From Enchytraeus crypticus (Eukaryota; Annelida; Clitellata; Enchytraeida; Enchytraeidae): DNA of 64,000 nt. The notes under the pieces are model-generated. The model made no database searches, was not told where the DNA came from, and saw only the letters and a program-made list of their open reading frames with translations. Shown piece by piece: positions 16,401-52,400 of the stretch (positions are counted from its first letter, which is position 1; every line of letters starts with the position of its first letter). The position numbers and the translations under genes are program-made. The stretch is taken from assembly GCA_905160935.1 (NCBI GenBank), contig CAJHZI010000739.1:124001-188000 (forward strand), given 5' to 3'.

Positions 16401-19400
16401 ATTAAACATTCTTACCTAGATGCTAATAGAAAAACAAGACAGAAAAACCAAAGTTCTATATTTACCTTATTTTATTATATATTGTTTATAAAAAATATAA
16501 ATTTTTGTAATGTTTATTATTTCAGTATTATTTCTAAGATGTGATATAGCATAGGCTTATATCAGGGTCAGTTGAATAATTGTTAAGTCAGTTTTCAGTT
16601 TTTAATATGAATAGAAATGAAGCCATGCCGATAATAATAATAATGTATGTTGTGAATTTATATTTAAGTTGCTTTTATCCGATTGTATAAAGCTGTGTGT
16701 ATCTGTTGCTGTTTGTATGGCAGCTGTCCAATGGCAGCTCCCACGTCAAGTCTGTGCTGGCTAACTTTAAGAAGGCATCTGCTACACCGGCCAATGTCGT
16801 TTCCTCATTTGGACAAAGGACCACTCCTAAGATTCCTTCACATGAGGTACGTCAGTAGTTGTAGTAGTTATCAACACACCTGCAAATTCTACTTTGATGG
16901 AATGATGCGTTGATCATGATAATATCTGCTAGGGTTAATTTCAGTTTTTTTAACCAGATAGTTGTTGAAACAGTTTAGACCATTTTTCTAGTATATTACT
17001 GGACTCCAGAGCTTGACCCAAATAATTTTGGTTTTTAATCTACATATAATACTGGATTAGGCTCCTCCTATAACTTTCTTCAATCATAAGATCTGTGGTA
17101 TTGCCATGGTCTCCTGCTTCCTCTTATTGTATTAGAACAAGTATCTATTATATTTGTTATACTTATTTGTTACATTTAAGCATCACTGTATATTTGTCTC
17201 CATGGGCTGCTTCCTACTGCATAGAGTTCTCGTAGCTGCCTTTCACATCTTCTTCTTCCCTTGTATCCCAGTTTAACTAGGATCAGGATTAAAAAATTTG
17301 TAGCAATTTTTGAGCCTAGGCGCTCACCAACTAAGTGCCCTTTCTGACCTAGCTGCAAGTAAAAAATGTAAAGCTCTGATTTATTTAGAGAATTTCCATT
17401 CAATTTAGTTTGAGGATTAAAATGAACCTACATATGTGAGAATTAACATGTTAGATGTGGCTAGTTGTGTCTGTCATTGTTCATTTCTAATGCCACTAGG
17501 GCCTGCTGCTGTAATGAGTTAGTCAGAGTGAAGCTGTTGACCATAGATATAATGATAGCAGCTCCTCTGATGTATACTCTGCAGGAGCTGTTGACTACAG
17601 ATATAATTGTAGCAGCTCCTCTGATGTATACTCTGCAGGAGCCGTTGACTACAGATATAATTGTAGCAGCTCCTCTGATGTATACTCTGCAGGAGCTGTT
17701 GACTACAGATATAATTGTAGCAGCTCCTCTGATGTATACTCTGCAGGAGCTGTTGACTATAGATATAACTGTAGTAGCTTCCTCCAAAGTATACTCTGCA
17801 GGAGCTGTTGACAATAGATATAACTGTAGCAGCTCCTCTAATGTATACTCTGCAGGAGCTGTTGACTATAGATACTACTGTAGCAGCTCCTCTAATATGT
17901 ACTCTGCAGGAGCTGTTGATTATAGATATAATTGTAGCAGCTCCTTTAATGTATACTCTGCAGGAGCTGTTGATTATTGATATAATTGTAGCAAGTCCTC
18001 TAATGTATACTCTGCAGGAGCTGTTGGAGCAGAAACGCAAGGAGCTGACGGAGAAAGAGAAGAGACACAACGTGCTGATACAGAGACGTCTGGAGGAGCA
18101 GCAGAGGAAGTTAGAGGAGACGAGAAAGTAAGTTATCTAACAATTATCTTGTTATAAAATAGCATGAGATAATAGAGTTTTAAGGATAGGCTCTGAAGAC
18201 AATGATTTCAAGTAGAGTTCCTCAATTGAAAACTATGTCAAGCAGAGTGATGCATGTATATTCTCAAAAAGAAATTTTTAAGCATTAGGTCTTGATTAAA
18301 ACAGACTTCAGCTGTTCAAATTAACAATTTTTGCATTTATATTTTCTACAGTGTAGAATTTGTGCATTTGAAACTGCTGACTTCTTTAGTTTCAGGCATA
18401 TTTGAGCTAGTTCTAGATATTTATTTATATTATTTATTTTATTTCTTTATATTCCACTAGTTTTTGGAATTATATATCTCGACTACAATAATATGAATAA
18501 TTAATTATAAGTCAAGCTTTGAGTTTTGTTCTGTTACAAGTAGAAACTGATCAGAAAAGTATTCACACTGAGCTTTTCAGGTTTATTTCAACAAAAGCTT
18601 TTTCCACAACTAAACCTACAGCTTCTTTATGTCTATGGGAGTTGAGAAAGTGGATATTTGACAAAGATTTCTGGTGCATGAAATGTAGACGATTACAAGT
18701 AATATGGTATGTATTGATAATTAATAAATAAAGCAGATAACAATAAGATTCTGATAATAAAACAAATTAATGTGTTTGACGAGCTTGTAGGTCCACTGGA
18801 ACAACATTGAGAGCAGGTAATGAGAAGAAAATTAAACCAGTTTAAGGATGTCTGTAGAAATTACTTCCAATTAAAATTGAAATTTGAATTATCTATGAAA
18901 AATAATATTAGAATTGAAGTTTATTCTGAAACAGAAGAACACAACCTATATGTCTGCGGTTGATAGGTTCATAGAATGTTGCAGGGCAGTGACAAGTGTG
19001 TATGTTTGCATGCTTAGATTGCGTGAGGAACACTTGAAGCGCGTTCAGATACGTCGCATGGAGTTGGAGCAGGCCATGACGTCTAAGAAGCTCACGTCTG
19101 GTCAGAAGACTGAGGCTGCAGGCAGCAGAGCTAACAGAGCCGATGATGCTCAGAAGAGCGAAGAGCTCAGGTGCAGTAGTTCTGCTTACTCTAGAGACTT
19201 GTTCATGTTTGTATTAAATGGTTGATGAAATCTGCAGGGTCCGCTCACTCTATGCATTCATTTTCCACGTGTGTTGTCACACTTTCCTTTTATTGTGTCT
19301 GGGCACTGAAGAAGATAGCATCTGTTAACTGCACTTGTTGTAAGAGGCGACTTTGGTAAAACTGAGGAGGTCAGTGGGAATCCACCTCAGAAACATATTT

Positions 19401-22400
19401 TTCTCCTGGTGTAGGCTACATAAAGCATAGATAAGGCTTAGCCTTTTGTTAAGGGATTAACTTGTTGATCTTTGAAATGCTCTTTATGGTGTATGAAACA
19501 GTCTCTGAGTAGGAATATGTACCTTGGACCTTCCAATTGTAGGATACTAGAAAGAGACATTTCTTCAGCATGCAAACCTTTTATTATTTATTTATGCTTT
19601 TTAAAAGTCTAAAACCACTTAACTCTTTAATTATGTGTTGTAGTTATTTTTGATTGTGTTTGTAATTTTTTTAATCGCCTAGATATTACAATATTGTGAA
19701 AAGGTATGTGAGGTTGCTGCTAAATATGTTTTATGCTATGCCTCGATTGTAATGCAGTAATAACAGATAAGAGTTGACTTCTGCTGTTCTAACTTTTCAA
19801 TGAATATTGTTTTTAATGATCAACCTTTTTAAATGAGCAGGATCGTGATAAGTTTAAAGATTAATGCATTCATCCTTGACTTAAAATTTGAACCTTAGAA
19901 ACAGCTAGAAGTATGCAAATTCGTTAAATTTCATCTTTTCCGTTTGATAATATTCTATTACAAAAAATCTGTAAAGCTAATGTTAACATCAATGTCGTCT
20001 TCTGAAAACAATATCAGTGATGGGCGAGCCCAGGATTTGAAACCACACAATACAAAGGTACTGTGGTGTTTCTACTTGTAGCCTATTTGTTAACTAAGAC
20101 ATTTCATGTAATAAAAAGTTAACCTCGCTTTGATAGTGTATTTTTCCTTAAAAAATTCTATTTTCAGAAAGCTAGCTGCAGAGGAAGAGGCCTTGCAGGA
20201 AGAATTGGCCGCTACATTGGTGAGTTATTTATCGTGCATGATCTAGGAGTTAATCGTAAAAGATGTGATCATTGTTTCTAATGCAATGTTTTCTACTACT
20301 AGTAGAGAATTTTACTGTATAGTAACATATTCTGAGCCTTCATAGGCAACTCTTTCTATCTATTTGCACTGATATCTGCAAAGCATGTCTATGTAGAACT
20401 TAATATCAATTAACTTCTATATAATCTTAGTGATAATTAATTGATTTTAACTATATAAATATCCTGATATGTATTGTTGCTGCACATTTTTTGAGATATC
20501 AGAATTTTTTGCTGCAGAGCAAGAGCTTCATAATATTGCTTTGAAAATTAATTATACTTTTTAAAGTGTAGTATCACTGAAATATTGATCTGCTAATTGT
20601 TATGACCTTTTGTGAAATTTTATGACTCCTTGTTTTAATAATTTTTCCGATTGAGTTTATCGATAACTGAAGTACGTTTTAAGTAACTGTATCAACACTT
20701 CAGTACATAGATTCAGTTTTAAGTTTGTGCTTTTGAATCATAGAGCTAATTAAATATTTTAAGTACGTGAATCCATATTAAGTTTAACTTTTATTTTATT
20801 TATGTCTATTTCGTTAACTGTTTTCTTCGTATGTTCTGCTTCAGTATAGGTTTCATAATTTAATAGTTGGTTTTGAATGGTTTGTAAAGAATATTTTAGC
20901 CGTATTTTATGTGCTTTAACAATTTTCTGTATTCGTTTCACTTTTACAACAGCATAGGTAGATATTTTGTGGTAAGATTTGATTTTGTTAAAATTTTTGT
21001 TGGATATATTGTTTGTATTGTGCTCAAAGGAGGTAACAAACAATACCGATGATCAACCGCGAAAGTCTACAAGATCATCACGGAGTGGGCTAACGAAGAA
21101 TGATGCAGTGCCAGGCGAAGCAGACGAAATGCTTCCAGAGAAAGATAGTGCTAGCAGTGAAGATAGCAGGAAGACTATTGCAGAGCAGCTGGAGTTGGAG
21201 AGGTTGGAGAAGGAAAGATTGAAGAAAGAACATGATAGAATTTTGAAGGAGAAACAAGAACTGGAGGCAAGGAAGGCTGAGCAGGAGGAAAAAGAACGAG
21301 AGAAGCTTCGATTAGAGCAGGAGCAGAGACAGAGAGAGCATGATAGGCTCATTAAGGAGCAGAAGTTGAAACAAGAGCAGGAGCTTCAGCGGCTCAAGGC
21401 TGAGAGGTCTGGGCTGATTATAATTATATTTAATTGTACATCAGAGCATCAGATTAATTTTTTAGGGAGAAAGAAATACAAGTAATGTTATTTATTTATG
21501 TGTTCAGAAAATATGATCTGTGCTTTTACGATTATCTGGGCTTCTGTGTAACTTTAGATTCTAGCTTTGCCTTTAAAATATAGTTAATAAGAAATTTCTT
21601 ATATTAATATCATACTCACTGCAGATTTATACATGTTCTCAGAAATTTATTAAGTCAGTATTTTATTAATTCATTTTAATAATTATTTATTCTGTGCATA
21701 CAGAGAGAAACTGGAGAGAGATCAGAAGGAATTTGAACGTCAAAAAGAATTGGAAAGAATCAATAGAGAAAAGCTTGAAGCGGTATTATATAAACTTTGT
21801 TATTACAAACATTTATTTAAGAACATGAATTTTATAATAGTTAATAATATATTTTATTAATAATTCGAAAAATATAAGGGTCATTCATTTGTCACCCACT
21901 CAGCTCAATTTTATACTTAATATGCAGATTTTCTAGATTCTTCCTATTGCTAAGCAAATATGAACTTATAGAATATTTCATCGCCACTGGCTGGAACCAG
22001 TGGCTATGTCGGTAAGATATTCGACCGCGAATCAGTATGTGCAGGGTTCAAATCCTGGGCCTGCCGTCACTGACAAGGCTTTCAAGTGAGGAAACTGGCG
22101 TTAACATTAGATTGAGCTTTATTATATGTTTTACAAAGTAGTCGTAAATAGGTTTTCAGTTTAAGGTATTGTTAAGTTTAGGTCGTCGTGTCTTCTAGCT
22201 AGGAAGTTTGAGGTATTGTTAACATGAGTTTGCTGTGTTACCTGTAGGCTAGGAAGTTTGAGGTATTGTTGACATGAGATTGCTGTGTTACGTGTAGGCT
22301 AGGAAGTTTGAGGTATTGTTGACATGAGGTTGCTGTGTTACGTGTAGGCTAGGAAGTTTGAGGTATTGTTGACATGAGTTTGCCGTGTTACCTGTAGGCT

Positions 22401-25334
22401 AGGAAGTTTGAGGTATTGTTGGTGTGAGATTGCTGTGTTACCTGTAGGCTAGGAAGTTTGAGGTATTGTTGATGTGAGATTGCTGTGTTACCTGTAGGCT
22501 AGGAAGTTTGAGGAGGCTCAGGCGAGAGAGAGAATTAGAGCAGAGGCTGAGAGGAGAGTGAGAGAGGAGCAGATAGCTAAAGCCCAGTTGCTGCAGGAGA
22601 AGTACAAAGAGTCGGCCGGCAACAGATTGAATCAGACTACAAACGGCACAGCTTCTAGAGTTCTGTCTATGTCTCTGACAGATGTGGGCAAGCAGTATAA
22701 GGGTTTGACTGCGAGTAGTCAGAAGCCATCAGGAGCCCAGAGAATCAGCCCTGCGGAGGTTTCAAAACCTGTGCCAACCGGCCCCGCTAGGGTCCCTGGT
22801 ACTGCTGCCACTTCAGGAACTAGTAATAAGATCGTCACGGCTACAGCTCTAAATACTTCTAGTAAGCCTATGGCCGGGCCTTCCACTGCTGCAGCAAATA
22901 CTTCTCAAATCAAACAGGATGGCCAGAAGGCTTTCAACAGAACGTTTGATAAGGAAGGCGATTGCGATTCGTAAGTTTATCCTTTTTTATTTGTTTGTTT
23001 TTACCATTTTGTAGATGTTCAGATATTAAATAAAACGATGATTCATTATGGTAGTTGATGGCTTTACCTAGTTTAATAAAAATACTTTTGTTTGTATCTC
23101 TGAATTTCATTTCAGTCTTTAGATGTATCTAATAACGTTTCTAATGCATCATTGTTGCATATTGGTAAAAAATTGAATATTTATTATTCTTGTGTTATGT
23201 CTATCGTTTCATATTCTTCTCTATTCTTGTGTTATGTCTATCGTTTCATATTCTTCTCTATTCTTGTGTTATGTCTATCGTTTCATATTCTTCTCTATTC
23301 TTGTGTTATGTCTATCGTTTCATATTCTTCTCTATTCTTGTGTTATGTCTATCGTTTCATATTCTTCTCTATTCTTGTGTTGTGTCTATCGTTTCATATT
23401 CTTCTCTATTCTTGTGTTATGTCTATCGTTTCATATTCTTCTCTATTCTTGTGTTATGTCTATCGTTTCATATTCTTCTCTATTCTTGTGTTGTGTCTAT
23501 CGTTTCATATTCTTCTCTATTCTTGTGTTATGTCTATCGTTTCATATTCTTCTCTATTCTTGTGTTATGTCTATCGTTTCATATTCTTCTCTATTCTTGT
23601 GTTATGTCTATCGTTTCATATTCTTCTCTATTCTTGTGTTGTGTCTATCGTTTCATATTCTTCTCTATTCTTGTGTTATGTCTATCGTTTCATATTCTTC
23701 TCTATTCTTGTGTTATGTCGATCGTTTTATATTTTTCTCTATTCTTGTGTTGTCTATTCTTGTGTTGTGTCAATCGTTTCATATTTGTCTCTGCTCTTGT
23801 GTTATGTCAATCGTTTCATATTCTTCTCTACTCTTGTGTTGCATTGATCGTTTCATATTTGTCTCTACTCTTGTGTCGAGCAGCTACGACATGACTCCCG
23901 CAGTTAAGAAGAAATTTGCTCCTTCCACTGAGGATAATTACAACATCGCTGATCTGAACTCTGAAGACTCAACCGACGATGAAGAGAAACCTCGCAAAAA
24001 GATTCCGTTGTGGGCTCAAGGTATACATGCATCTAGTTAGAAAATATTTTAATGGCAATGGTTTGTGTTTAGTAAATTTATTAAAGCTTCTTTGATTTTT
24101 AAGAAGGATGGTGTATTTAGAGATTTTGAAACAACTCAAGATTCTCTAATTCTATGATAACTTAAAAGCTTATCCATCTGGAGTGCATGTATCCAAGTTA
24201 ACTATTTTTTAAATGATTGATATTTGTTTGTGATGGTGTCCTAACATTCAATTTTTACTATAATACATCCGGTGCCAAGAGCTCCTTAGTACGTGTCCCT
24301 CCCTATGTAAAATAAATAACTTGGTGTCTGCTTAAAAGCTTTAGCTGTCATTCTTGAAAACTGCTGATGCAAGACATGGTATCGCTGTGCACAGCACACT
24401 ATTAGACAATGAATGACGCTGCTTCCTAATTGCTTAATTTTAGGAGAATTACCACAAGCTTTAACCTCTTTTTAAAATAATTAGATATGAGATAAATTAA
24501 ATTATTTTTATAAGGAGCACTTAATAAAAAGACCTGATTTGAGAACTTTGGCACCTTTAAAATTGTGTAATATATTTTATATATTAATTGATAACATGAG
24601 TATACATTTCATTTATAACTAGATATTTGAAATTCAAATTATATAGGACTTAACATCTTCTGTGGAGCCTGTTTAGTACTGTATAAAATCGAAACAAGAT
24701 TCACATATGTTTCTAATATGATTTGATCAAAATTTCTCAATTTTTATACTACATTTGTCTTAAGAGGGCATTCAGAGAGCTTACAAAAGACTCTGTATGT
24801 TGTCTTGAATTACTTTAAATATACCGGAGGACCCGAAAATCGATCCCTCTCCAAAATGAAAAGATGGAATAGTAGTTTAATTTGTAGATATTAACAGTAT
24901 TGTATACTTGCTATTGTGGATAGATTTGTTGTCCTAGTTTCACTGAAGCTTCTATGAAGGTTATATGGGCATTATTACACTTATATACAGTTCTGAAACA
25001 ATCAAATAAATAATTACATTGCTATAGCCATTATTTAAGCTTTTTAATTTTCACGAAGATCATATCTAGACCATGTATACATGTAGATTTACATTGCTGC
25101 AGAAATGTTTATAATGTCTGCCTTAATCAATCAGTTCTGTGTGTGTGTATCGTAGGAAACAGATTGAAGGCTGCACTAATTAATCAATGCGTGGAAAACT
25201 TTGACGCTCACAAACTGTTTGGGGAGATGGAAGTTCTTGATCTCAACTTTCTCTTCAAGAAGAAGAAACCTCGATTCAACAAGCGCACAAGTTCAGCAGT
25301 GTGGGACGAGTTTCCTTCTTTCACAAGGCCATAG
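7419..25334 (+). CDS. INCENP: Inner centromere protein INCENP (18 coding exons)
   Basis: Exons: 7419-7564, 8260-8457, 9834-10083, 10610-10818, 11497-11686, 12318-12715, 13871-13997, 14592-14646, 15834-15874, 16724-16846, 18018-18127, 19018-19170, 20168-20219, 21030-21406, 21704-21782, 22498-22970, 23884-24020 and 25156-25334. They total 3297 nt, 1098 aa plus stop, and the phase agrees at every junction. The ATG follows an in-frame TAG at 7401. The N-terminal helix WIEEVLAEGKKTLQE followed by LLPKTPS and a basic patch matches the Survivin/Borealin-binding end. The middle is low-complexity, rich in S, K and A. Residues about 730-880 are a charged E/K/R single-alpha-helix or coiled coil. The C-terminus is a clear IN-box: KIPLWAQG, then FKKKKPRFNKRTSSAVW, which holds the TSS motif. 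Known role: scaffold of the chromosomal passenger complex; the IN-box binds and activates Aurora B and the TSS serines are its targets. It is longer than the 918-aa human protein. Several introns hold tandem arrays at splice sites, described separately. The acceptor of exon 14 could be 3 nt further in. Confidence 0.93.
8540..9425 (+). repeat. Dispersed repeat (family C) and CR1-tail scraps in INCENP intron 2
   Basis: 8540-8620 and 9285-9425 match two consecutive parts of the repeat at 19320-19565 (for example TTAACTTATTGATC and the CCTTGAACTTTCCAC block). Between them, 8985-9045 resembles the inverted CR1-like tail (AGAGTGCTAATGTTGTCCGT). The insert appears composite and old. Confidence 0.5.
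10993..11095 (-). repeat. tRNA-derived SINE, family 1 (truncated)
   Basis: It shows TTTCTTCACTCGAAGGCGAT, the inverted B box (AGCCCAGAATTTGAACCC) and part of the A-box side. It lies in INCENP intron 4 and abuts the inverted-repeat element that follows. Confidence 0.75.
11100..11357. repeat. Fold-back element built of GAGA/TCTC palindromes
   Basis: The segment is made of repeated self-complementary units such as TCTCTCAGAGA. It ends in a large hairpin: 11281-11316 and 11320-11356 are inverted copies of 36 and 37 nt, differing by one inserted A, around a 3-nt loop. The whole stretch could fold into one long rod. It may be a MITE or foldback element. No transposase is seen. Confidence 0.75.
11740..11910 (+). 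repeat. Possible decayed tRNA-like SINE in INCENP intron 5
   Basis: The spacing resembles a tRNA head: TTAGTAGCATAAATATCTG as a weak A box, then CTGGTTCAAATATC as a B box. No second copy was recognised, so this is tentative. Confidence 0.25.
15341..15654 (+). repeat. 79-bp tandem repeat, four copies, INCENP intron 8
   Basis: The block containing ACTGGCCCTAGACTTAAAAA recurs at about 15351, 15430, 15509 and 15588, an exact 79-bp spacing. The copies look identical apart from the left edge, suggesting recent expansion. It ends 180 bp before exon 9. No splice signal is inside the unit. Confidence 0.95.
17531..18026 (+). repeat. 54-bp tandem array repeating the 3' splice site of INCENP exon 11
   Basis: Each unit holds GAGCTGTTGACTA, a branch-site-like TTGAC, a pyrimidine-rich stretch and TATACTCTGCAG. 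The AG ends fall at 17584, 17638, 17692, 17746, 17801, 17855, 17909, 17963 and 18017. The spacing is 54 bp except one 55-bp step. The last AG is the inferred acceptor of exon 11, whose first nine bases (GAGCTGTTG) are part of the unit. From 17802 the units are open and in frame with exon 11; each would encode an 18-residue segment of the type ELLTIDITVAAPLMYTLQ. Confidence 0.95.
19320..19565 (+). repeat. Dispersed repeat, family C, INCENP intron 12
   Basis: It contains GGGAATCCACCTCAG, GTAGGCTACATAAAGCATAG and GGGATTAACTTGTTGATC, then a block ending CTTGGACCTTCCAATTG. Relatives lie at 3420-3500, 8540-8620 and 9285-9425 in plus orientation, and at 32505-32720, 59080-59235 and 63385-63640 in minus orientation. 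No coding capacity was seen. Confidence 0.65.
19979..20055 (-). repeat. tRNA-derived SINE, family 1 (3' half)
   Basis: It carries the inverted B box GAGCCCAGGATTTGAAACC and the family 3' block TGTTAACATCAATGTCGTC. The A-box end is missing. It lies in INCENP intron 12, 112 bp before exon 13. Confidence 0.7.
21978..22130 (+). repeat. tRNA-derived SINE, family 1, INCENP intron 15
   Basis: A near-full copy: palindromic head CACTGGCTGGAACCAGTGG, A box, B box GGGTTCAAATCCTGGGC, and 3' block GAGGAAACTGGCGTTAAC. It lies just upstream of the 50-bp array. Confidence 0.85.
22198..22512 (+). repeat. 50-bp tandem array repeating the 3' splice site of INCENP exon 16
   Basis: The unit is GCTAGGAAGTTTGAG (15 nt, identical to the start of exon 16), then GTATTGTTGACATGAG, a TGCTGTGTTACC stretch and TGTAG. 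Acceptor AGs fall at 22247, 22297, 22347, 22397, 22447 and 22497, exactly 50 bp apart. In all but the last copy the 15-nt piece is followed by GTATTG, a donor-like site. Reading through a unit gives an in-frame TGA. Confidence 0.95.
23186..23878 (+). repeat. 37-bp tandem array, about 18 copies, INCENP intron 16
   Basis: The unit contains TCTTGTGTTATGTCTATCG followed by TTTCATATTCTTCTCTAT, total 37 bp. Copies are almost identical on the left and degrade near the exon. It is pyrimidine-rich on the sense strand and stops a few bases before the acceptor (GAGCAG) of exon 17 at 23884. Because 37 is not a multiple of three and the unit lacks stops, all three forward frames stay open for over 200 codons, which is an artefact of the repeat. 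Confidence 0.97.
24111..24293 (+). repeat. 183-bp direct repeat, copy 1 (INCENP intron 17)
   Basis: It matches 25467-25649 over the full 183 bp without gaps and with only a few substitutions. It starts GTGTATTTAGAGATTTTGAA and ends near CTTAGTACG. Confidence 0.93.
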
Positions 25335-25466
25335 TAAAATGTTATATTTAAACTCTGTGAAACTTAAACTCTGTATTATAATGTAGTTTTATCATAGCAT
25401 TTTGTAATTATTTCTTCCCTGGTCCTTCGTGTTCTAGAATTTTCTTTCGCCTTCGTACTAGGTATA

Positions 25467-25649
25467 GTGTATTTAGAGATTTTGAAACAACTCAAAATTC
25501 TCTAATTCTATAATAACTTAAAAGCTTATCCATCTGGAGTGCATGTATCCAAGTTAACTATTTTTTAAATGATTGATATTTGTTTGTGATGGTGTCCTAA
25601 CATTCAATTTTTACTATAATACACCCGGTGCCAAGAGCTGCTTAGTACG
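25467..25649 (+). repeat. 183-bp direct repeat, copy 2 (3' flank of INCENP)
   Basis: This is the second copy of the segment in intron 17, beginning about 130 bp after the INCENP stop codon. No family relation to the SINEs or LINEs in the window was seen. Confidence 0.93.
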
Positions 25650-25739
25650 AGAAACAGTACTTCGTACTATGTTTCTCGGTTGGTTTCATTGATTAAACTT
25701 GCCGTGATCAAGTTTCGAGAAATTTAACTCTAAGGCCAA

Positions 25740-25865
25740 GCTTAATATCAGTTTCCTGCTTGAATAGCATGTCAGTGACAGGGAGAACACTGGATTTGAA
25801 CCCTGCATCTACTTATCCGCTATCGAATAACTTGCCAACAAGCCACCGGCTAACCCGTGGCTGAG
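25740..25865 (-). repeat. tRNA-derived SINE, family 1 variant
   Basis: It contains the inverted B box ACTGGATTTGAACCCTGCA and the A-box side. It shares CAGTGACAGGGAG with the copy at 52010, so these two may form a subfamily distinct from the CAGTGACGGGCGAG copies. Confidence 0.75.
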
Positions 25866-27650: not shown

Positions 27651-27654
27651 CTTC

Positions 27655-28892: not shown

Positions 28893-30990
28893 GTGGACAG
28901 ATGCAGATCATAAACTAGTAATATATCAAATAAAATTTGAAAAAATATATAAAAGAATAAAACCAAATATTAAAAAAAATGTTTGTAAACTAAATCTGGA
29001 AAAACTAAGTGACAACGATATCAAAGAAAAATTCCAAGTTAACATACAACATGATTATGATGAACTTGTAGAAGAAAATGAAGAAATAAGCTGGAAGAAT
29101 CTTTCAGAAATAATAAAAAATAGTAGTATAAAATATCTCAAATCAGAAGAAAAGCATGCAGATAAAAAATACATAGTAAACCCTTTAATTAGTAAACTCT
29201 CTGCAAAGCAAAAAGTCTTGAGAAAGATAAATCGACAAAAACCAAAAGAAAAACTATTTTTAAGAGAAAACAGTAACATAATACAAAATGAAAATGTAAT
29301 AAATACAAAAATAACTGAACACTTCAAAGATATATTTTACAACCAAAATACAGAAATTAACTGAAATTAAACCTGAAAAAATGAAGACACCTTTCTCTAC
29401 AGATGAAATAAAAAGTGCTGTTAGAAAATTAAAAACAAATAAAAGCCCAGGATCTGATGAAATCACAGCAGAAGAACTAAAAAACTGTCCTGAAAAAATT
29501 TACAATGAAATGGCAAAAATATTCAATAAAATGGCTGAAACAGGAAAATATCCAGAAGAGATTAAACTAGGAATATTAATACCCCTACAAAAACCAGGAA
29601 AAGTAAAAGCACATGCAGCAATTTAAGACCCATAATTTTATTAAATCTTATCAGAAAGATACTGTAAATTGTAATGATCAATAGAATATACAATAAAATA
29701 GACAAAATAATACCAGTCACTCAAGCCGCCTACAGACCAGGCAGAAGTACCGCTGAACATGTCCTAACATTAAAACTTCTTATCGAAAAAGCAATAACAA
29801 ACAAAAACTCAGAAATAGAAATCATGCTTCTAGACATGAGTATGGTGTTTGATACTGTCAATAGAAATAAATTATTGGAGGATTTAACTTAAATAATTTA
29901 TCAGGACGAACTGCCTATAATTAAACTTATCATTGATGATGTAATTTTAAGAGTTAAAAATGGAGATGCAACTGGAAATGAGTTTGAAACTAATATTGGA
30001 ATACCACAAGGAGATTGCTTAAGCCCGGTACTTTTCACATTTTACCTTGCAAATAGCTTAAACAAACACGAGAACCAAATTAAAATAGCAAACCAAATTG
30101 AAGAGCACTCATACTCCAAAGAAAATATACCATATGAAGACTTAATTCCTAATCATATTATAGAACATAACTATAGCAAAAAACGAGAAATAGGTATAAA
30201 TATTGATCAGCAGTTTGGAGATGATATTGCATATGTAAGCACATGCAAAAAATAAGAGACAAAATTCAAAAGGAAGTCAATGATAAACTGAATAAGAGAG
30301 ATTTAAAACTAAACACAGATAAAACAGAAAAATATACCATTGGAAACAAAAATGATCAGGAATGGAAGAAATGCAAATATTTAGGTTCTTACTTGGATAC
30401 TGAAAGAGACATGATCCATGGAAAGCAATTGTGTATGGCTATTTTTAATAAATACAAGATGAAACTAACAAATAGCAAAATAAGAATGAAAACAAGAATA
30501 AATATATTCAATGCTTATATTACGCCAGTTTACTTATATAATAGTGAGCTATAGACATTAACTTCAAAACAGGAACAAGAAATTGACATATTTCATAGAA
30601 GTCTATTAAGAAAACTGCTTAAAATATATTACCCTCACATTATAAGCAACGATGACTTATACATCAGAACATATGAAAAAAATGGAGTCTTGCAATTAAA
30701 ACACGAAGACTAAAATGGATAGGTCACTTACTTAGGTTACCGAACAATGCACCTGTAAAACTTGCTTTGAATGAGAATAAAAAATCTCAGACAAAACAAA
30801 GAGGTTGTCAAAATAAACAAACATGGATCAAATTAGTAAATAAAGATCTCAAAGATATAAATCAGAATTTGAACATATTAGATGAGAGCATCTGTGATCT
30901 GGCTGAGGATAGAGCGAAGTGGAGTCAATTAACCTTGAGACCTACTGCAGGGTCCAAATAGGACGTAGCGCAGTGTCAGTAGTAGTTTTA
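28893..30990 (+). mobile_element. Degenerate AT-rich non-LTR retrotransposon (5'-truncated)
   Basis: The frame opens with WTDADHKLVIYQIKFEK, the end of an AP endonuclease domain. Reverse-transcriptase blocks follow: FSTDEIKSAVRKLKTNKSPG with GSDEITAEELK, QAAYRPGRSTAEHVLTLKL, MLLDMSMVFDTVNR (the F/YxD site), GIPQGDCLSPVLFTFYLAN and QFGDDIAYVST (the FADD-type box as FGDD). Then come KLNTDKTE, WKKCKYLGSYLD, and the C-terminal RINIFNAYITPVYLYNSEL. Several stops and frameshifts break it, so it is inactive. Very A-rich codon use separates it from the neighbouring genes. The clade is not certain (RTE-like or Jockey-group). Confidence 0.85.
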
Positions 30991-31260: not shown

Positions 31261-31404
31261 AAAAATATAGTGACTCAATTGAATATATTAACAAATATTG
31301 CTTTCTTTTTTAATTTATGGGCATAATGATTGTAACTAACAAAATTTGTTTTTAAGTTAATTTTGTTTTCAGACTTCACATTGAAGAACCCTGTGTAATT
31401 TAGC

Positions 31405-32901: not shown

Positions 32902-35900
32902 TTTTGCAACTGTGTCAGATAAATATAAAAGCAGCACATCTCAAATAAAATTTTCAGCATAAATTTTAAATTAACACGTACTGTGTATAATCGTGTCATA
33001 ATGTATTAGGATAGTAATGAAGAAGAAAATTTATTGGTACAATATTTGAATAATACAGAGTACTGTATGGAGATCAGGCTTCATATTTTGATGCTGAATT
33101 GAAGCCCAGAATAAAGCATAAGAAGTTTGGCACGCTTTCTATGGTCAACAATGGTAGCAATATGCATGGATCCCAGGTATTACAGTCTGCTTACATTTAA
33201 TTTAAACTTAGGATATTTTTAGGGTCTGAGTTTGAGTTATGTATATTTTGAATTGTGGAACATATAAATTTGTTAGGGGATTTAAATCTGGAATATTTTA
33301 AATCTCATGCAATTTTGATTTAAAATATCTTAGTAATATTCGAGAGCTCCGTTAAAACTAAATTAAATGTAAAAGTTGAAATGCAAACTGCACAAGGTGA
33401 GACATGTGATACAACATTGTCTAGATAGCGTCTTCTATTGCATCTACCTTTCTGGGGGCCGTCTGTCCCTTGTGAAGTCCCACAAGTGAATGGAAGTTTG
33501 TAATAGTTTGTTTGTGGATTAGTAGGATTGTTAAATCAAGAATTTCACCTTGGATTCCTGCAGATTTGAAGCAATCCTTACAAGATGACATAACTGCTTG
33601 TAGCCGAAGAGTGAGCTCTTCGCTCTGTCCTATATTATTATAGAATATTTATATAGTAATGAGTTTATAGTATATTATAACGCTGTCTTATAGTATTATA
33701 TTATAACGAGTTTATAGTATTTTTATGGAAGCTTTTGAAGTAGCTCACTAAAGTAGATTTAGAATCATTGAAAGAGATCACTGGCTGGAGCCAGTGGCGA
33801 AGTCGGTATTACACTCGACCGCAGATCAGCATGTGTGGGGTTCAAATCCTGGGCTCGCCCGTCACTAACATGGCTTCCAAGTGAGGAAATTGACGTTTTC
33901 CTTAGCTTTACCAGCTTTAGCTTTATTTAAGTAGATTTAGAATCAGAATTGTGCCCGTGCTGCGTGCCGTGTATGGCTTTACTCCCATGTCCCTATGGAT
34001 AATTCTTGGGAATTTAAGTTAAAAGTCGTTCAAATTTGAATGTAATTTTTAGTTTATAATTTGCTGTGTAATTGCTAATAAATCAGTCGCTACTGCTTGA
34101 CTGGCCAAGGTTAAAATAGTTTGTCTGCTGTTTGGTACATTAAGGCTATGAGTAGAGACCCCTTTTGTGCTGAAATTTAAGTGACCTATTTGTCTGATAA
34201 ATAGAATGTTCAGTGCAATCTACCTTACGCTGTATTTATTATAGCTGTGTCTTCGAGCACTATTATGAATGATTCTTCAATTTTAGCATTGATTCATCGT
34301 TGTAGTTTTTCATAACACTGGGTGAAGACATTGACTACCTGGACCGACAGATGCATACAGTGTTTGGAGAGGTTGGCGATGGTTTTGATACTGTGAAGAA
34401 ATTCAACGATACTTTTGTCGACTCAAAAAATAGACCATTTAAAGATATCAGGTTGGTGGTGTTACTGGTCATATGAGATGCTTAATATGCTGTATTTTAC
34501 TTGGCTTCTGTACACTGAATTTAATGCTTACCAGGCATGTAAACAGGTAATTAATAAATTCATGACCGGTAGCTGGTTTTCAAGACTGCTTTATAGTTTC
34601 CTGGCTGGTCATTTTAAGTCCCTTCCATGGTTAATCATATATTTGCCATTGATAGCGCTAATTGGCTGCAAGCTTCGATATATTATTAACCTACTATTAA
34701 TATAGGCCAGATCATCCCCATTCAGCCCCAAGTCTAAATCTGGTTCATACCTACCCTCCAACATCCCCATCCATGGTTACCCCACTCCTCTCATAGGCAA
34801 TCCAACCTCCAGGCCACTCCTCTCGAGGACACCCCAATATCAAGCAAACTGATCTCGGCCCACTCCACGCCCAGGCAACCAATGACCCATTTGATGATCC
34901 TGATAGTTTGTTGTTGAGGATCTTCCACACAGTGATACTGGATGACCCATTTGATGATCTTGATGGTTTGTTGTTTAGGATCTTCCATACAGTGATACTG
35001 GATGACCCATTTGATGACCCTGATGGTTTGTCTCCGCACATACCTGATGCTTCACCGGAACCAACAGCAGAGCAGCTGGAGGTGAGTGTAGGGCCCAGTT
35101 AGACGATGTTTGAGGAGTGGACTAATGATGACAATTTAGTTCCAAGAAATATGTAGACATGTGATTGATAGGGCATGGAATTTTTAATTTGGGTAATATA
35201 CTGCTGTAAAATGAGTTTTGCATTATTAAAATATTACAAAGATGATTAAGTAAATAAATTTATATTATCAAAACTAATTGTTTAAAATTTAATTTCATAA
35301 ATAGCATTCCTATTCGAAATTAAGTCACAATTTGAAAGCTTGACAAACTACATTAAAATAGAAGCTTTGAAATTGCCGATGCCGGAGCCTTGTGTGGTTT
35401 TAATTTTTTATGGAAGCATTTAGATATCCTTGAATAACACATATCATTACCTTCATACTCCAGTCAGCTACTAATGGCTATTGTTGAACTAATAAAAACT
35501 TCCTTTTAGCGTTCTATGGGGTCGGCACGGAATAGTCTAGGTAGCAAATTGAACCGTAAGGACGGCTATTCTTCGGTCTGACACCACGAAGTGTACCCAA
35601 CTAGGTTTTTATATTCATTTCGGAGAAGAAAAACCAGCGTTGCATTGCAGTCTCAAACCCCCATTCAAGAGGTGAGCTCTCTACCACTGCGCCACTAGGC
35701 GTTCCCGCTAATGTTTAACTAATAAATTTTCAAACAGTATTTCTACTAAAAAATAATATTTTCCTAGTATTCCTCCTAATATTCCTTAATATTCCTCAAA
35801 TTCCGGGCTCGCTCGTCACTGACATCGATTTCGAGTGAGGAAACTGACGTTAACCTTAGCTTTACCAGCTTTTACTGCTAGCACTGCAAACTATAATCAG

Positions 35901-43000: not shown

Positions 43001-46000
43001 ATTTCCATTTACGCCGTTGCAAAAGCCCTCGCATAGAGTAGCCTGCTAGATGCTAAACACTATGGGTAGAAGCAATTATATCGGCATCTATTATTAGCCT
43101 GTCAATAGAAGAACAGAGATGATATCATACCATCTATATGCGACAGTCTACTTCTCGTATCTTTAGGCAAAAATTATTTACTATTTGTTAAAGATTATTA
43201 TTCTAATTATTATACATACATGTGTTACTGTATACGTACATGCGTTACTGTATATAATTATGCAGTTATTTACGATACTTTGCAAATATGAATGAGTTCA
43301 ACACTGCAATACAATACATATTGTTTCTTCTAATTAATATACGAATTGAAAGAAATGTACTTCTATAGGAATACGGAAATCGAATGACATTCTAACAGCA
43401 TTTATAATAATAAAAGATTTCAGACATGGATACAGGTTGTAATCATAGTACGACATACAATATTCTTGTATAGCTCATAGCACATAACACTCTATACACA
43501 TAGCAGCGTCCTAGCCACACAGATACTGAAAATACGTGGTAAGAGAATACCACACGCAGCATTACATTCATAAACTTCTTATAATGGCCAATGGCTCCTT
43601 ATTATAAATTATATCAGCTTAACTTAAGACATAACGGATGTACTTGTTTACAATTTTACAAAGATCATATCTGTTAAATGTTAACCATCGCATAACATCT
43701 AAACAAGTTGTACATTAAAAAATAAAATTTGTAACTAATGTATGCGAACATAGAAAAAATGCAACATCACATATTTAGTGTTGAGCCTCAATACAATAAC
43801 TATCTAAATATTACATAAAAACTAAGTGGCTGTGTTACAAAACATACCCATTGTTTTTTATCATACTTTATTACAACAAAAAAATTAGAGTAATGATCGA
43901 ATCTCACAGCTATAAACAGTTCTTCACAGATCTGCATACCATATCCATTTATTTATACAGTGTTGTATACCATTGTTCAGTATCACAATATTAATATTGG
44001 CATTGCATCTTAAATGATACCCAATAATTCTAAAGTACAAGATATTACCGGTTATCAATGAAATATCAACACTGACATACTTTACATATTTTTAAGCACA
44101 TTGTAGACACAGTACAGCTAAATATATAGATATTAAAATACACACTTTTGCAATGATCAAATCTAGCACTGTTTCCACCACACGTTTAAATTACAAGATA
44201 ACTTAGTCAACTATGCTACTACTAGTAAGATCGACGCTATACTCTCGGTCCGGCTCCTACCTGCACCAATAGAAGTTTGTCTCTTAAATGCACGATGCCG
44301 CCTGACACACTAACAAACTTTAGACATACTGTGAACAGGACAGAGAAGAACTTTTAAGTCATACGACAATCTACAAACACCAATTTATGGCCATATACTG
44401 AATATATTATAGTACAGCATAACTAAATCGTAACTGTCACACCATAGTACATTCATAAACATTAGTTAGAGAATGTCAATTTCTAAACATTAGAGAATGT
44501 TAAATTACTCTTTGGACATCAACAGAACACAGCTTTTACGTTAAGTACACGTATACTCCAAGGTACAGCTGACACTTTTAGTACAGAGACATCTGCATAG
44601 AATTTTACATTTCCATACAATACAAATTAATGTTTTCTAGTAAAGGTTTCTCTGCATTACAAATAAACATTTATGAAGTCAAAATTACTCATTAAATAGT
44701 AAAATATTTGAAATATGAATAACATACACATAACACACTTTATATTATTTTGGTATATTTAACAAATAATTACTTAAATTCACATGCCCTATTATCATAC
44801 ATGCGTTACATATCTAAAAAAGTTGTATATCTTAATGTTAACTGTTATATGTTATATATCTTAATTACACAGTGTAACCGAACATAAAATAACTACTAAC
44901 AAAATATTACACTTTTACAGAGCACAACAGAATGTTTACTCCACATATAGCTAGCAACACTACAACGATATCTTCATGTACAGAGAACGGCAGCATCGAA
45001 GATTAAAAGTCAAATCACTTAACAACAGCATACAGTAACAGCTGCCACAGATGATAATACAGGGTCACAGACACACGAGTTTACTGCACTTTCAATACAG
45101 TCACGATTATCTAGAAACAATGCAAAGACAAACAATACATAAGTTATACAAGCAATACAATATAGTTCAATATGCCATTTATAAACAAAAAACACTTATA
45201 ATTGCAATACAATCCTAACAAGCTAATCCATTGTGGTAAATTTAGCACTATTAGAGAACAGTTAAATTTTTAACAATGGCATGGATTCAAATAGTCTACC
45301 TTTGATATTATAGAAGTTTATATAAAATTTAGATACAACTAAGATACTTTATATAAGATAAACTTTATTCGTATGTTGCTCAAATATACTCGTAAACATA
45401 CACATACATAGCATAATAGCAGACAGTTTCTCATTCACATAGACACTACCTGACTATACTCATAAACATACACATACATAGCATAATAGCAGACAGTTTC
45501 TCATTCACACAGACACTACCTGACTATACTCATAAACATACATGATATTCAGACAAAGCATACGTAAAAATGTTTTACGTAGCACTTTAGACACTTGTAC
45601 ATATACTGTACACGTACAACTAACTACATACATGTATATACCAACCTTTTCTCTTGGTATTTGCATTCACAACATATAGGAGAAATGCACTTGAAAACAT
45701 CTATACTTACCTCTCCTTGTGACATTCTTGAAATATATTTAGAAACAGCTAACCTACCTCTTTTGTATACACTTTCTGCACTTACCTCTTTTCTATACTT
45801 GCTGTTGTGTCTGGAATAATATTCCACTTGCTATTCGCAATGCATTATAAATATATTCTCTTAGTAAATGATGCAAAGATTTCTTAATAAATGGTCAGTG
45901 AGCTCTAGTTCATTACTATCAATTTCAATTACCCATGTTGTATTTCAAAAATATCTCGCAAATATGGCCGAGAATTCAGCTAGACGAGATACTATGTATC

Positions 46001-46436
46001 TTCACTGATGGCCACGCATACTCGTAATATTTACGCTTGTATTTTCCATTTGTTGTGCAGGCTTTTTCACTGTTTGCAAGGACGTTTTTGTTTGCTGTAT
46101 TTATATAGTTGAGTTTAAATGTAATATAACCTATTTCTCTCCTTCTATCTCCTGAGGCACATACGTGAAATATTCTTAACAACAGCCATACTTACTACTT
46201 TGTGACATACGTGAGACGTACTTAAATATGAACAAGCTATTTAATCAAGATCAGTAAAATTAATTATATTATTTCAGTCGTTAACTCCGTGAAAATGAAT
46301 TAGCTTTATTTAATTATTAACAAAAAAGCATCCTTTGAAGAATGAGTGTTATCTGAATTTACACTTTGTAAATTACAAAGAAACTGCCTAAGATAAATTA
46401 ACAGCACTGAAAGCATACCATGATCCTGTCTTAGTC
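43001..46436 (-). other. Probable long 3' UTR and flank of CELF
   Basis: No coding signal was found on either strand. The plus strand is dense in ACA and CATACA words, so a minus-strand transcript would be rich in UGU and UGUAUG. A 70-bp unit is repeated just over twice at about 45389-45545. TTTATT near 43868 is a minus-strand AATAAA candidate. The extent of the UTR is inferred, not shown. Confidence 0.4.
45389..45545 (-). repeat. 70-bp tandem repeat downstream of CELF
   Basis: The block AAACATACACATACATAGC to CACTACCTGACTATACTC recurs with 70-bp spacing (starts near 45391, 45461 and 45531, the last partial). There is only about one difference between the two full copies. Confidence 0.93.
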
Positions 46437-49400
46437 TCAATACGGCTTTGAAACCTTTGGTGTCTTTAGCTGCACCTTCAGCTTTCCCATGCCAATACGA
46501 AATCCATTCATCGACTTAATGGCATTACTCGCTGACATCTTGTTATCGTAGCTCACAAAGCCTATTAATACACATAAAGCTGGTAAAGCTAATGTTAACG
46601 TCGGTTTCCTCACTTGAAAGTGATGTCAGTGATAGTCAGTTTCCTCACTCAAAAGCGATAAGAGTGATGGGCGAGCCCAGGATTTGAACTCCGCACATAC
46701 TGATCTGCGGTCGAATAACTTACCGACGTGGCCACTGGTTCTCCAGCCAGTACATACATACATGCATGCAAATATTGTTAGATACAATATTGTTTAGCGT
46801 CAGACACTTCTTAGTCAAACTCATCACGAAGCAAATCATCGTGCAGCATAAACTATGCGAAGTAAAATATGATTATAACACTGTCGAAATATTGCGTCTG
46901 CAGAAGATTGAAGTGTTTCGATAAAATTCTAACTTGACAAAATTGAGAAGATTTATCTCAGGAAATCATATCAGACTCACAGACTTAGTATACAATATTC
47001 CTGTAACTTACTTTATATTGTATCACATTTAGAATCAGCTTTAACAAATAAAAACGAAGCAAAACCTTTTAAACACAATTATTTTAAATGAAAATTGATC
47101 CATTATTACACACTGTATCAATTCATTGCTGCGGCATACATAGGTCTACACGTACACTAAGCTCTTATTACTTACCATATCCCTTGCTAGTCTTGGTGAC
47201 TTTATCGACGAAGATGGTAGCAGAGACTATGTTACCAAAAGGTGAGAACATATTGTACAGCTCTGAATCGGTGTAAGTCGGTGGAACATTGAATATAAAC
47301 AAGTTGCAACCTGGTGGACCTAAACATATATAAATTCTCAAATCTATAACAGTAATGACAACATTCTCTCACAGTCTAACTATTCATTTTTGGTGACTTC
47401 TTGTTGAGATTTTTTAGAATATTTTAGGGCTTTCTGTTGATTCTGTAAATGCAAGCGAATTTAGGTATATAGAATGAACTGATGGTAGTTTTATATACCA
47501 CTAAAGACATTCATGATATAAAAACATTAACAACTAATAGAGTATGATTGGCTTAAATGATACAATCAAGCATTACTTAACTAAATTACAGTTTACGGGC
47601 AACAATACAAATGATTTCAAAATCTAATATCCAGAAAATCAGTCCAAAGATAGAGAATTAAAGAAAAGGAGGTTATGTTCTAGTCGCAACCCAAGGAAAC
47701 TGTATTGAAAATAGATATCAAAAAGATATTAAACTACGCAAGTAACTGCTCATAGGAATGCAAACGCTTACGTGATACATATATTGCTTAAAATATTGCC
47801 ACAAGTTGTGTATTGCTGCTGTTATACAAAAATCTAACCAAGAATTAAAGTATCAGATTGACTCGAAGTAAATAATTATAAATTAATCTTATCGTTCTGC
47901 TACTATTACTTCAAAACCATCAATTTAATATATCAATATTTCATCACTGATCTCTATTGACCGAAAGAGAAAAGAATGAATGCAGAGCTACTACCTTCTT
48001 TATCTTTTCCAGAAAGGCCTGACAAAGGAGGACGTGGAGCAGCTGGATAATTCATCGGCGGTGGAACAGTACTGCCTGGATATGGGTAGGGTCCTGATTG
48101 GGCATAGCACCAGTCAAATAGAATCAGTCAAATAGAGCATAGCACCAGTCAAATAGAGCATAGCATCAGTCAAATAGAGCATAGCATCAGTCAAATAGAG
48201 CATAGCATCAGTCAAATAGAGCATAGCATCAGTCAAATAGAGCATAGCACCAGTCAAATAAAGCAAATGTACACTGTCGATAATTAATTAATCAATATAC
48301 ACCGTAACTGTACACTGTTGAGATACAAAGCAGCAACTATACACTGTCGAAAGAATGAAAAATCAACAAGTTGTAAAGATAGCACAATTTTTTTTAAATT
48401 TCTAGAAGAATTTTGCATGAGTCCATCGATGAGGTTACCTGATTTTGATAACCGTAAATCCACTTTCTTTTCAATAATATGAGATAGTACTTACTTAAAT
48501 CTTCTAGATTACCACCAATAGTGGTCAGTAACAGTCCATGAGTTCCAGCTGACTCAACATCAGCAATAGACGAGCCTAGAATTCATTTCATACAAGTACT
48601 GAGAAGTGACCATACACACCAATAAATTTAGATCTGGAAATATGAATGCAGGCTGCACTAACCAGGAATATTCGTAGGGAGAGATGGTTGTGTGGCTGCC
48701 GTACCTCCAAATGCTGCAGCCGCTGCAGCAAACTGTTGAACAATGGCCGGGTTCAAAAGCGTGGACAACACTGCAACATCAGCAACAGAATAAAATCTTT
48801 TAGTGAATTAGAGGAGTTGATAGCATACTCTTCGATACTTGTGTGAGTTACGAGTCATATCAGCGATTAATTAGAAGTTCTAAATAAATATCAGTCTGAT
48901 ATTTTTGTTATATTTATTAACATTTAACCCTGTCAAAATATAATAATTAATTTAATTAAATATTATTAAAAATTGTCCAGCCCAGTGGACAAAATTTGAA
49001 TTAAACCGGTCTAAATCAGACAAAAATGGGGAAAACTCGGCAAAACTACGAGCAATAGAAATGGTATTACAGTCAATTTAACCGAATACTAGTAAATTCT
49101 TTGCAGTGCTAATAAATATAATAATTACTAACCTTTACAATAGACTACTAATGAATAAATATTAATTAATTTAATAGCAAAAGCTATAAGAACAAGCCTT
49201 TATGTTTGTGTGTGCATTAAAAGTTGAGTTTTGGAACAATTCGAATTGAGAGCAAATACAAACACATCAGCCTCATTCAGTCCAGGCGCCTGACGGCCTG
49301 GTGGTAGGGGAAACTAGTCAGGCTGATATGTTGCAGTTGCATGTTGTATTTTCTATGTGGCAATACAGCAGGAAAACCCTAACAGCTACGATTTAAACAT

Positions 49401-52400
49401 GCAGTTTAACCACGGTAAAAATGCATGTGGGTAAAACTTGCCAACTCTGCCGAATACAGACCTGGATTAGACGCCAGTTGAGCCAATGCCTGAATGCCCT
49501 GAAGAGACTGATTGTCGAAACCTGAGAAATACAATATTAACATTTAAATATATTACACATCTAAATATATTATACATCTTTCAATTCATGAGCACTCCTT
49601 TTTGAGCAAATATCATATTGGATGGATGACCAATTTGATAGCATGCATGTCTGATATAGTTAAGCAGGAGGCCTTCCATTCTAATGTCAGTTGAAACAAT
49701 TCTGCCAGCATCCTCTGAGGTTCTTACCCCAAAATGCATGTGGGAAGAACAGAAGTTAAACTTTAATATTCTGCACAACATGAGCAGGTTTTGAGAGATT
49801 TATTCTGAAACTCAAAAAGTGAATTTACAAATGCTTAAGTGGAGTCATGGCTACGGTAAATAGATCAAAAGCACACTGCAGGTGTTGTAATAGAAGACTA
49901 AGCAGAAGCTGTGGAAATAAATCAAGACTACAAGTCTCACAAGCCGCATTCGTCAAGCCAATAGCTTCAAATTGTCAATGAGATACAGTTTAATCACAAT
50001 TTAAATTCCCAACGTCTTAATATTAATAAATGTCTTAATAACAAGGGGTAACGTCATGAAGTTTTAAATGACAGATCCTGAGGTGAATTGAACTCTCGTT
50101 GGTTCGAATCCAAGTCACGCTGATCTGAGTGTAAAATCTCAGACATTCACTTGACTGGTTATACAGAAAATGGACTAAATTGCGTAATGAATTAAACATG
50201 TGGCACTATAAAGTGAGAGACATAAACATAGCTGATCACTTCACTATAATGCGCGTTAACTTAACAATGAAAAGAAACATGTCAGCAGATATTCCTCATC
50301 CTATGATAATACCTGTAACTTCCCTGGACTCACATTATTCTGACAGACAAGGCTACTTAGACTTAGAATAGAACTACACAACAGTGGCAAGGTCAACCTG
50401 GCACAGGAGGCGGACTAGAGTATGGTCCTGAGGGGGTAGGGGCTCTCGCTGAATATGGGTTCATAGGAGGGGCCCCAACTGATGAAAAACGTGGAGCACC
50501 TACAATAGTAAAAATAATAACAAATGACTACAAGCAGTACAATTAATTAAACGTCAGACAATTAATTAAACATCAGACTAATCAGAAGTCTAGCTAACTG
50601 AGAGCATAACATTAGTATAGCAGCGATACCACTGATATCAATCACACCATTGATATCAATGACACCACTGATATACTGATGTTATACTAGGCTTTAGACT
50701 TTTTAGCATTTGCTTTTTGTTTAAGACATATTCATATGCTTCACAAATGATTACATGTGCGTAATTATATTTAAAGATTTGACGTCCCTGACATTGCCCT
50801 AAGGCGAGGAACCGGACGTTAAATTCTTATTGATTATTGATTGATTGAAAGAAGATAATGATTAGTACTTTAAATAAGTTTAGTAGTGTCACAAACATTA
50901 ACTGGATCAATGACACTAAGAATGTCAGAGGTAATGAACAAGCTATTTATAACCAATCCATGCAAGGTATAAGCTATGTTAAATTATCTGCAGCTACTAA
51001 CCATAACTGAAAGGTGCTCGGGGAGCGCCCATTGCTGGAGGTGGGCTCATCATCTGAAACATAAATAATATTATATTATAATTAATCAATCCATCAATAA
51101 CTCAAGTCATACACAATGGCATGTGGTTTGAACTACTGGTTGATTGACAACTATCAATCATAACCAACCAGATAAGCAATGCGAAATATAATAAGAGGAG
51201 ATAAAGCGGCCATGCATAGCGCATAAATACCAAAATGATGAGTGACTGAATTACCTTATGTTACTGTAGGAATCACTGTTAGCAGGTATACTAGGGCAGT
51301 TGAGAGATTGAATTAACTTAGTTATTGTAGGAACCACTGTTAACAGGTAAGATAGGGCAGTTGAGAGATTGAATTACCTTATGTACTGTAGGAACCACTT
51401 TTAACAGGCAGGCTAGAACAGTTGAGAGATTAAATGAACTTACGTTATTGTAGGAACCACTGTTAGCAGGTATGCTAGAACAGTTGAGAGATTGAATTAA
51501 CTTACGTTATTGTAGGAACCACTGTTAGCAGGTAGGCTAGAACGCGGGTGGTTTGAGTGCTGACGTTTCATTTCTTTCTGCTGCTGCGTCTCGGCAAACT
51601 TTACAACTATTGGACTCTTACAGCCCTACAACAAACATCAATCAATCAAGTAAATTAATTATCAATCAATACGTCAAATAAAGATTTCGCCGCACAGAAT
51701 ACAAATAAATTGTATAGAGACCGGAGTCTTGCAACCATTTTATAAGCAACTTTGCAGTAACTATCATCTCAGCCGTAAATTGTATATACTTAGCTCTTGC
51801 ATTTAGTTTTACCTGTAATTGACTCCTATAAAAACTCTTGAGGTGAACCTAAGAGTTCAATGCCAATATTTATTCCTGCAGCAGAAAGTGAAAAGTTTTG
51901 AACTTATTGAGATAAGCAATACTACAAGCACTGGTTCAAATTATTGTCTACAAGTAATAATACAAACATTTAGTGCAGATTGATCTAAAGGTTACATTTA
52001 AATGTCAAGTTTAACGGCAGTTTCCTGCTCAATAGCAAGTCAGTGACAGGGAGAGCACTGAATATGAATCACGCACTTACTAATCCACTGTCGAGCAACT
52101 TGTCAACAAGCCACTGGCTCAGCCCAATCTCTAGTCATACAGTTTCAAAAACCAACTTTAGAATCTGAGGAATAGAATAAAGATATAAATAATATAATCA
52201 AACCTCGAATGTGCGAGAAAGATGCAAAGCTTTGATGGCATTCATCGCACTCAACTGAGTTGTAAATGTCACAAAAGCACATCCTAAATATCATAGGAAA
52301 CAAGTATTAAATACATAACATCAATTGAAGTCAATTAACCATATGATACAGCATTACTTTGTCAGCAAGAATTTTTTTTAGATAAGATGAGCTAATGAAT

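Follow-up and report, generated by a model that had tools for sequence, protein, structure and literature searches.

Tandem-repeat arrays with copied splice sites at exon-intron junctions of Enchytraeus crypticus

Genes and arrays of the window

The window analyzed here is a stretch of 64 kb from Enchytraeus crypticus (contig CAJHZI010000739.1, positions 124,001 to 188,000), which carries part of INCENP together with PPIL4 and CELF, and in which tandem-repeat arrays with different units lie on or beside the exon-intron junctions of these three genes. An excess of such arrays at junctions stands up in a separate sample of modest size, taken from the myosin genes of the same genome, and the arrays that cross a junction repeat a splice site along with the exon edge, as do the lancelet repeats called 'mirages'.

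The exons of INCENP, PPIL4 and CELF were picked by eye with homology in mind and then joined by script, and the joined frames are open with GT-AG introns. The INCENP model matches the Pfam family INCENP_ARK-bind with 23.7 bits, just over the cut-off of 22, as well as INCENP in PDB; the CELF model contains three RRMs according to Pfam; and the PPIL4 model aligns over 371 residues with PPIL4 in PDB and is 62% to 74% identical to the best 120 of 5957 matches. For the CELF model (46437-55300, minus strand) at least two matches were found at an E value of 1e-100 (48% and 46% identity) with 8000 candidates scored, and in comparison to PPIL4 of the same window its sequence may be unusually divergent.

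Arrays were called with Tandem Repeats Finder (TRF), which returned 44 rows in the window and recovered all six arrays that the earlier note on this DNA had described. These six and three further arrays are as follows (a slash marks a splice junction):

17532..18026, plus strand: 54-bp minisatellite, 9.1 copies, crossing the INCENP acceptor 18017/18018 (TRF and exon model)
22198..22513, plus strand: 50-bp minisatellite, 6.3 copies, crossing the INCENP acceptor 22497/22498 (TRF and exon model)
23185..23876, plus strand: 37-bp minisatellite, wholly intronic, stopping 7 bp short of the INCENP acceptor 23883/23884
34882..35031, plus strand: 60-bp repeat, 2.5 copies, crossing the PPIL4 acceptor 34978/34979
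51239..51543, minus strand: 62-bp repeat, 5 copies, crossing the CELF donor of exon 51506-51625
48118..48265, minus strand: 21-bp minisatellite, 7 copies, in the CELF intron before the acceptor of exon 47995-48093
12144..12276, plus strand: 25/33-bp repeat in an INCENP intron, stopping 41 bp before the acceptor (exon start 12318)
15338..15654, plus strand: 79-bp minisatellite, 4 copies, within an INCENP intron, off junctions
45385..45542, minus strand: 70-bp minisatellite, past the end of the CELF reading frame (stop codon at 46437), off junctions

The note had claimed that six arrays sit on or near junctions of the three genes and that four of them include exon sequence and the splice site itself, and both claims agree with the TRF calls and the open GT-AG exon models, the four containing three acceptors (with 9, 16 and 53 bp of exon) and one donor (with 38 bp of exon). 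The 54-bp array includes 9 bp of INCENP exon 18018-18127 and 8 spare acceptors, all intact (8/8); the true acceptor and all 8 spares read ctctgcag/GAG, giving nine consecutive acceptors. Similarly, the 50-bp array includes 16 bp of INCENP exon 22498-22970 and 5 spare acceptors (5/5 intact), so that six acceptors stand up to and at the exon start 22498, four of them reading cctgtag and two cgtgtag. The PPIL4 repeat takes in 53 bp of exon 34979-35081 and has one spare acceptor at 34918/34919, 60 bp upstream, while the CELF 62-bp repeat takes in the last 38 bp of exon 51506-51625 with its donor and has four further intronic copies, in which 1/4 donors is intact.

The two remaining arrays had been described as ending within about 10 bp of an acceptor, which is correct for the 37-bp array (7 bp); for the 21-bp array TRF gives a gap of 24 bp, which shrinks to about 7 bp by eye when the last, interrupted copy is counted. 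With gaps of 7 and 24 bp neither array spans the boundary as mirages do, and both are classed as junction-associated arrays outside the mirages. The note had further held that only the 79- and 70-bp arrays are away from junctions. Both are indeed off junctions, the 79-bp array lying 179 bp from its acceptor. The 25/33-bp array, absent from the note, ends 41 bp before its acceptor.

Some other repeats were observed in the window. At 11149-11338 lie 14-bp arrays rich in CTCTCAGAGA, with short palindromes and 8.8 and 3 copies by TRF. Copies resembling tRNA-derived short interspersed elements, with a GGTTCAAATCC-like stretch, were seen by eye at about 21990-22070, 33780-33870, 46670-46750 (minus) and 11020-11090 (minus), and ARAGORN called no tRNA in them. 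Open frames at 28894-30255 (plus) and 56474-57268 (minus) resemble by eye pieces of non-LTR (long terminal repeat) reverse transcriptase elements; three pieces of these frames gave no Pfam match at E 0.001.

Enrichment of arrays at junctions

Arrays in introns of the gene models with a TRF score of at least 100 and a period of at least 10 were counted, and as null model each array was slid along the intron that contains it, an overlap of up to 60 bp into the exon being permitted. Within the window, 5/8 intronic arrays cross a junction or lie within 20 bp of one (expected 2.5, P=0.059), and 7/8 lie within 50 bp (expected 3.5, P=0.0066). These counts alone are suggestive of an excess that is marginal, and since the window arrays had been picked by eye, a separate sample was tested.

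The genome of the window comprises 524 Mb in 802 contigs, and enrichment was measured on sampled gene pieces. Myosin genes were located by a genome search with the Pfam myosin head family (PF00063), which gave 81 matches and returned about 3 kb around each of the best 30 of the 81. The first set consisted of 20 stretches (164 kb) around ten myosin gene regions, chosen blind to repeats; the final set, reached after extending three gene pieces, had 16 pieces, whose 145 introns add up to 143.6 kb. Exon ends were predicted by spliced alignment to a profile of the genome's own myosin exons, using splice matrices from 31 window introns and an intron penalty of 48 for the models used; a lower penalty produced spurious micro-exons and those models were discarded. 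Exon lengths match between myosin paralogs at many of the array junctions. Three genes for muscle-type myosin heavy chains are clustered in some 90 kb of a single contig (G000 C332:749-836 kb) and have many of their intron positions in common.

The results showed that arrays are concentrated at the predicted junctions in both sets. In the first set, 20/44 intronic arrays either cross a junction or reach to within 20 bp of one (expected 10.0, P=0.0006); among wholly intronic arrays, 11/35 end at that distance or less (expected 2.5). The final set contains 54 arrays in 43 of the 145 introns, of which 24/54 cross a junction or come within 20 bp of one (expected 12.2, P=0.00018), and 13 of the 43 wholly intronic arrays end within 20 bp of one (expected 3.67, P=0.00002). 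The excess holds when any of the 13 array-bearing genes is omitted (largest P 0.0023), and it was also found with stricter TRF mismatch costs (23/50 arrays, expected 11.3) and with a period limit of 25 (20/40, expected 9.6). The number of junctions spanned is 11/290, or about 4%; carried over to the whole genome, which is an extrapolation, the figure would be a few per cent of junctions.

The positions of the array ends give a similar picture. In the first set, 18 ends fall in the first 40 bp of intron (1.7 per kb), in comparison to 0.2 to 0.3 per kb from 40 to 320 bp and 0.9 per kb beyond 320 bp, where the far ends of the arrays lie. Around the junction the ends spread over about 90 bp, of which about 50 bp belong to the exon and about 40 bp to the intron.

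Several results weigh against a bias of arrays towards junctions. When arrays of the first set were left free over whole exons, 20/46 were counted vs 17.2 expected (P=0.23); we think that this exon-blind null is unrealistic, because arrays within conserved exons would be lost, and the claim is restricted to tolerated positions. The genome-wide enrichment check proposed in the earlier note, carried out on a sample of genes, came out positive in the myosin sample with arrays slid within their introns, negative under the exon-blind null, and marginal in the window. Weak arrays (TRF score 60 to 100) showed no excess (1/28, expected 5.1), and with the score threshold lowered to 60 the count in the first set was 22/72 (expected 15.1, P=0.03). 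Neither two-copy repeats of all unit lengths (7/22, expected 5.1, P=0.21), nor two-copy repeats with units shorter than 30 bp (1/14), nor arrays of 2.7 to 6 copies alone (4/11, expected 2.8) were significantly enriched. The coverage of intron bases by arrays was not higher near junctions (5.5% to 10.7% in bins up to 320 bp vs 7.0% beyond), so that in the first set only array ends, not covered bases, accumulate there. Not all arrays are independent: the neighboring paralogs at C332:788 kb and C332:828 kb carry units that are 80% similar at the same junction, and three units on C129 resemble one another. The predicted splice scores are weak at 3 of the 11 crossed myosin junctions, and the sample is small, being one gene family and the three genes of the window.

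Copied splice sites and nature of the units

Fifteen arrays cross a junction, 4 in the window and 11 in the myosin genes, and their predicted junctions are 9 acceptors and 6 donors. Among 62 spare copies the AG or GT is kept in 57, in comparison to 50.9 expected from the identity of the flanking bases, and no purging of spare sites was seen across these copies. Nor was a preference for reading frame seen, the unit length being a multiple of 3 in 7/15 crossing arrays. The intact spares and the missing frame preference fit neutrality of the spare sites, which the note had put forward as a possibility. The most extended example is in a muscle-type myosin gene (L042:692-1066, on G000 C404), where 21-bp units comprise the last 18 exon bases and the start of a GTAAGT donor, giving 17 predicted donors including the real one, with 16/16 spare donors intact; by eye the unit reads V-S-A-G-L-I-Y, in frame and stop-free.

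That the arrays are not one spreading element, as the note had argued from their unlike units, is borne out by the whole-genome search, which was made for the 54- and 37-bp units of the six window units and skips very common words. Matches of the 54-bp unit are confined to its own array, and the 37-bp unit has, besides its own array, one 75% match in the genome. Among 50 units compared, 7 pairs align, 5 of the 7 within one gene or between neighboring paralogs. A dispersed mobile element was thus rejected as a source for these two of the six window units, for which no spread was seen.

The crossed introns themselves are probably older than the arrays, because 10 of the 11 crossed myosin introns stand at alignment columns where another myosin gene has an intron. 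On the same count, gain of the introns by tandem duplication was rejected for the myosin genes.

Origin of the arrays

We consider it likely that the junction-associated minisatellites, of which the strict cases are mirages, are local duplications of unique sequence that later expanded in place. The process would begin with a tandem duplication that starts or stops no more than about 50 bp from an exon edge, followed by expansion of the copies where they stand. Splicing would mainly use the site nearest the exon, with which the protein agrees with its relatives, and the spare sites would be neutral if splicing ignores or rarely uses them. Why the arrays should gather at exon edges is less certain. 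Exon edges may be favored birth places of duplications with units of at least 30 bp, and arrays that grow into introns may survive while those that reach deep into exons may be lost.

On birth and survival, evidence comes from two-copy repeats (at most 2.7 copies, matches of 85% or more) whose units measure at least 30 bp: 6/8 of these touch or cross a junction (expected 2.1, P=0.003). A bias already present at the two-copy stage points to birth rather than to survival alone, and we therefore rank birth bias first, loosely, with survival contributing. The note had named slippage or repair at R-loops or splice-site motifs as one possible cause, and on the motifs our reading departs from it: the ends of the arrays are scattered across a zone of about 90 bp that contains the junction, so a trigger in the motifs is unlikely and an effect of the exon edge is favored. 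The composition changes at that edge (GC 0.48 in exons, 0.33 in introns), and this step, R-loops and nucleosomes are candidate causes, put forward as ideas. The wider proposal is that exon edges are duplication hot spots in this lineage, with about 4% of sampled junctions spanned and more flanked. The process would depend on the exon edge itself, through nucleosome position, transcription or the composition step, and would continually make near-identical spare splice sites in natural series; this proposal we advance tentatively, as somewhat short of an even bet.

The strongest competitor is survivorship, by which repeats would be born evenly along introns and those next to exons would persist since a deletion of the whole repeat harms the gene. 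The arrays with many copies and those with diverged copies are what it would lead one to expect: above 6 copies, 7/17 wholly intronic arrays end within 20 bp of a junction (expected 1.07) and 12/18 arrays lie within 40 bp (expected 4.5), and among arrays with less than 80% matches the count is 4/7 wholly intronic arrays (expected 0.68); the lack of a clear excess in two-copy repeats of all unit lengths points the same way. It accounts less well for the enrichment of the two-copy repeats with units of at least 30 bp, and for that of arrays with at least 90% matches, 9/21 of which lie at a junction (expected 4.6, P=0.02). As the whole explanation we therefore regard survivorship as unlikely, while a mixture of birth and survival is likely, given the small numbers.

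Chance, helped by attention, might also place arrays at junctions, since intronic minisatellites are many and introns short enough that some would touch an exon; the density of arrays in the myosin introns (54 arrays in 43/145), the exon-blind null without an excess and the window value at 20 bp taken alone (P=0.059) are all compatible with it. The intron-conditional null was rejected in the myosin sample (P=0.0002 for touching or crossing arrays and 0.00002 for wholly intronic ones) and this was robust to omission of single genes, which makes chance improbable. We give still less credit to the view that the arrays are under selection as a means of alternative splicing, whether to supply variable in-frame peptides or to regulate splicing. 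Some units do keep the frame, among them the 21-bp myosin donor unit and the 54- and 60-bp window units, and repeat units in the human gene IFI6 act as splice donors (PMC4526556, in the part covered here), but the multiple-of-3 count among crossing arrays is no more than 7/15, wholly intronic arrays are enriched too, and the alignment with a single PPIL4 homologue shows no insert in that protein at the array junction. An assembly artifact, or a mobile element preferring exon edges, is the least probable explanation, as the copies carry private substitutions, arrays are present on several contigs, and the 54- and 37-bp units have no kin elsewhere in 524 Mb save the one 75% match.

If a few per cent of all junctions in an ordinary animal genome carry copies of their splice sites, mirages would not be peculiar to one subphylum, and the arrays would provide natural experiments on how the spliceosome chooses among near-identical sites, such as the 17 myosin donors 21 nt apart. 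They would also be a steady source from which introns could be gained, exons lengthened and splice sites shifted; models of intron gain by tandem duplication could be tested on living intermediates, and models of mutation would need to take account of a bias at exon edges.

Comparison with known systems

The kind of array described here is already known from lancelets, where tandem repeats straddling the boundary of an exon and an intron have been called mirages in Adh3 and globin genes (PMC3087553) and are also described in troponin C and PGBD5 (PMC3902484). In the parts of these reports covered here, the globin mirages are regularly spliced by reverse transcription PCR, differ in copy number between two haplotypes, and are proposed as a source of new introns (PMC3087553). 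Like the present arrays, the lancelet mirages cross donors as well as acceptors, have units of 10 to 160 bp, and keep AG or GT in many copies; the same marks are found here in the boundary crossing by 15 arrays (with 3 of the 11 myosin junctions weakly scored) and in the spare sites kept in 57/62 copies. The lancelet reports, as far as these parts go, concern single Branchiostoma genes, whereas here 145 introns of another animal were sampled, and unlike in those reports an excess was found also for wholly intronic arrays that end near junctions. By PPIL4 the animal of the window does not appear to be a lancelet: among the matches listed, identity to Branchiostoma proteins is 65% to 68%, no nearer than to those of molluscs and annelids, and in a tree whose bootstrap had not settled the window PPIL4 formed a clade with two metagenome proteins (99/96), joined weakly by leech and others (53/86), while the Branchiostoma pair was fully supported and separate.

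In the literature searched, outside of which most subscription papers lie, junction-spanning minisatellites of the mirage type were found only in lancelets, along with the human and potato cases below. As far as these searches show, the occurrence outside cephalochordates and the measured bias towards exon edges are new.

The other known cases each share a part of the pattern, as judged from the portions of the papers covered. Human segmental duplications contain internal tandem repeats that alter gene structure, about half of them in coding sequence (PMC2812944); as here, they are minisatellite-sized and some stand at exon-intron boundaries, and that portion reports no junction bias. The human IFI6 (6-16) minisatellite supplies splice donors from two of its downstream units (PMC4526556, citing Turri 1995), so that repeat units carry donors as they do here; transcripts using them are described for IFI6, whereas the donors here are predicted sites. 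In the potato RdRp gene, an intron was gained via a tandem duplication across an intron-exon boundary (PMC4974935), and the duplicated segment carries an acceptor and the start of the exon, as do arrays here; the potato intron is new, while the introns crossed here are probably older than their arrays.

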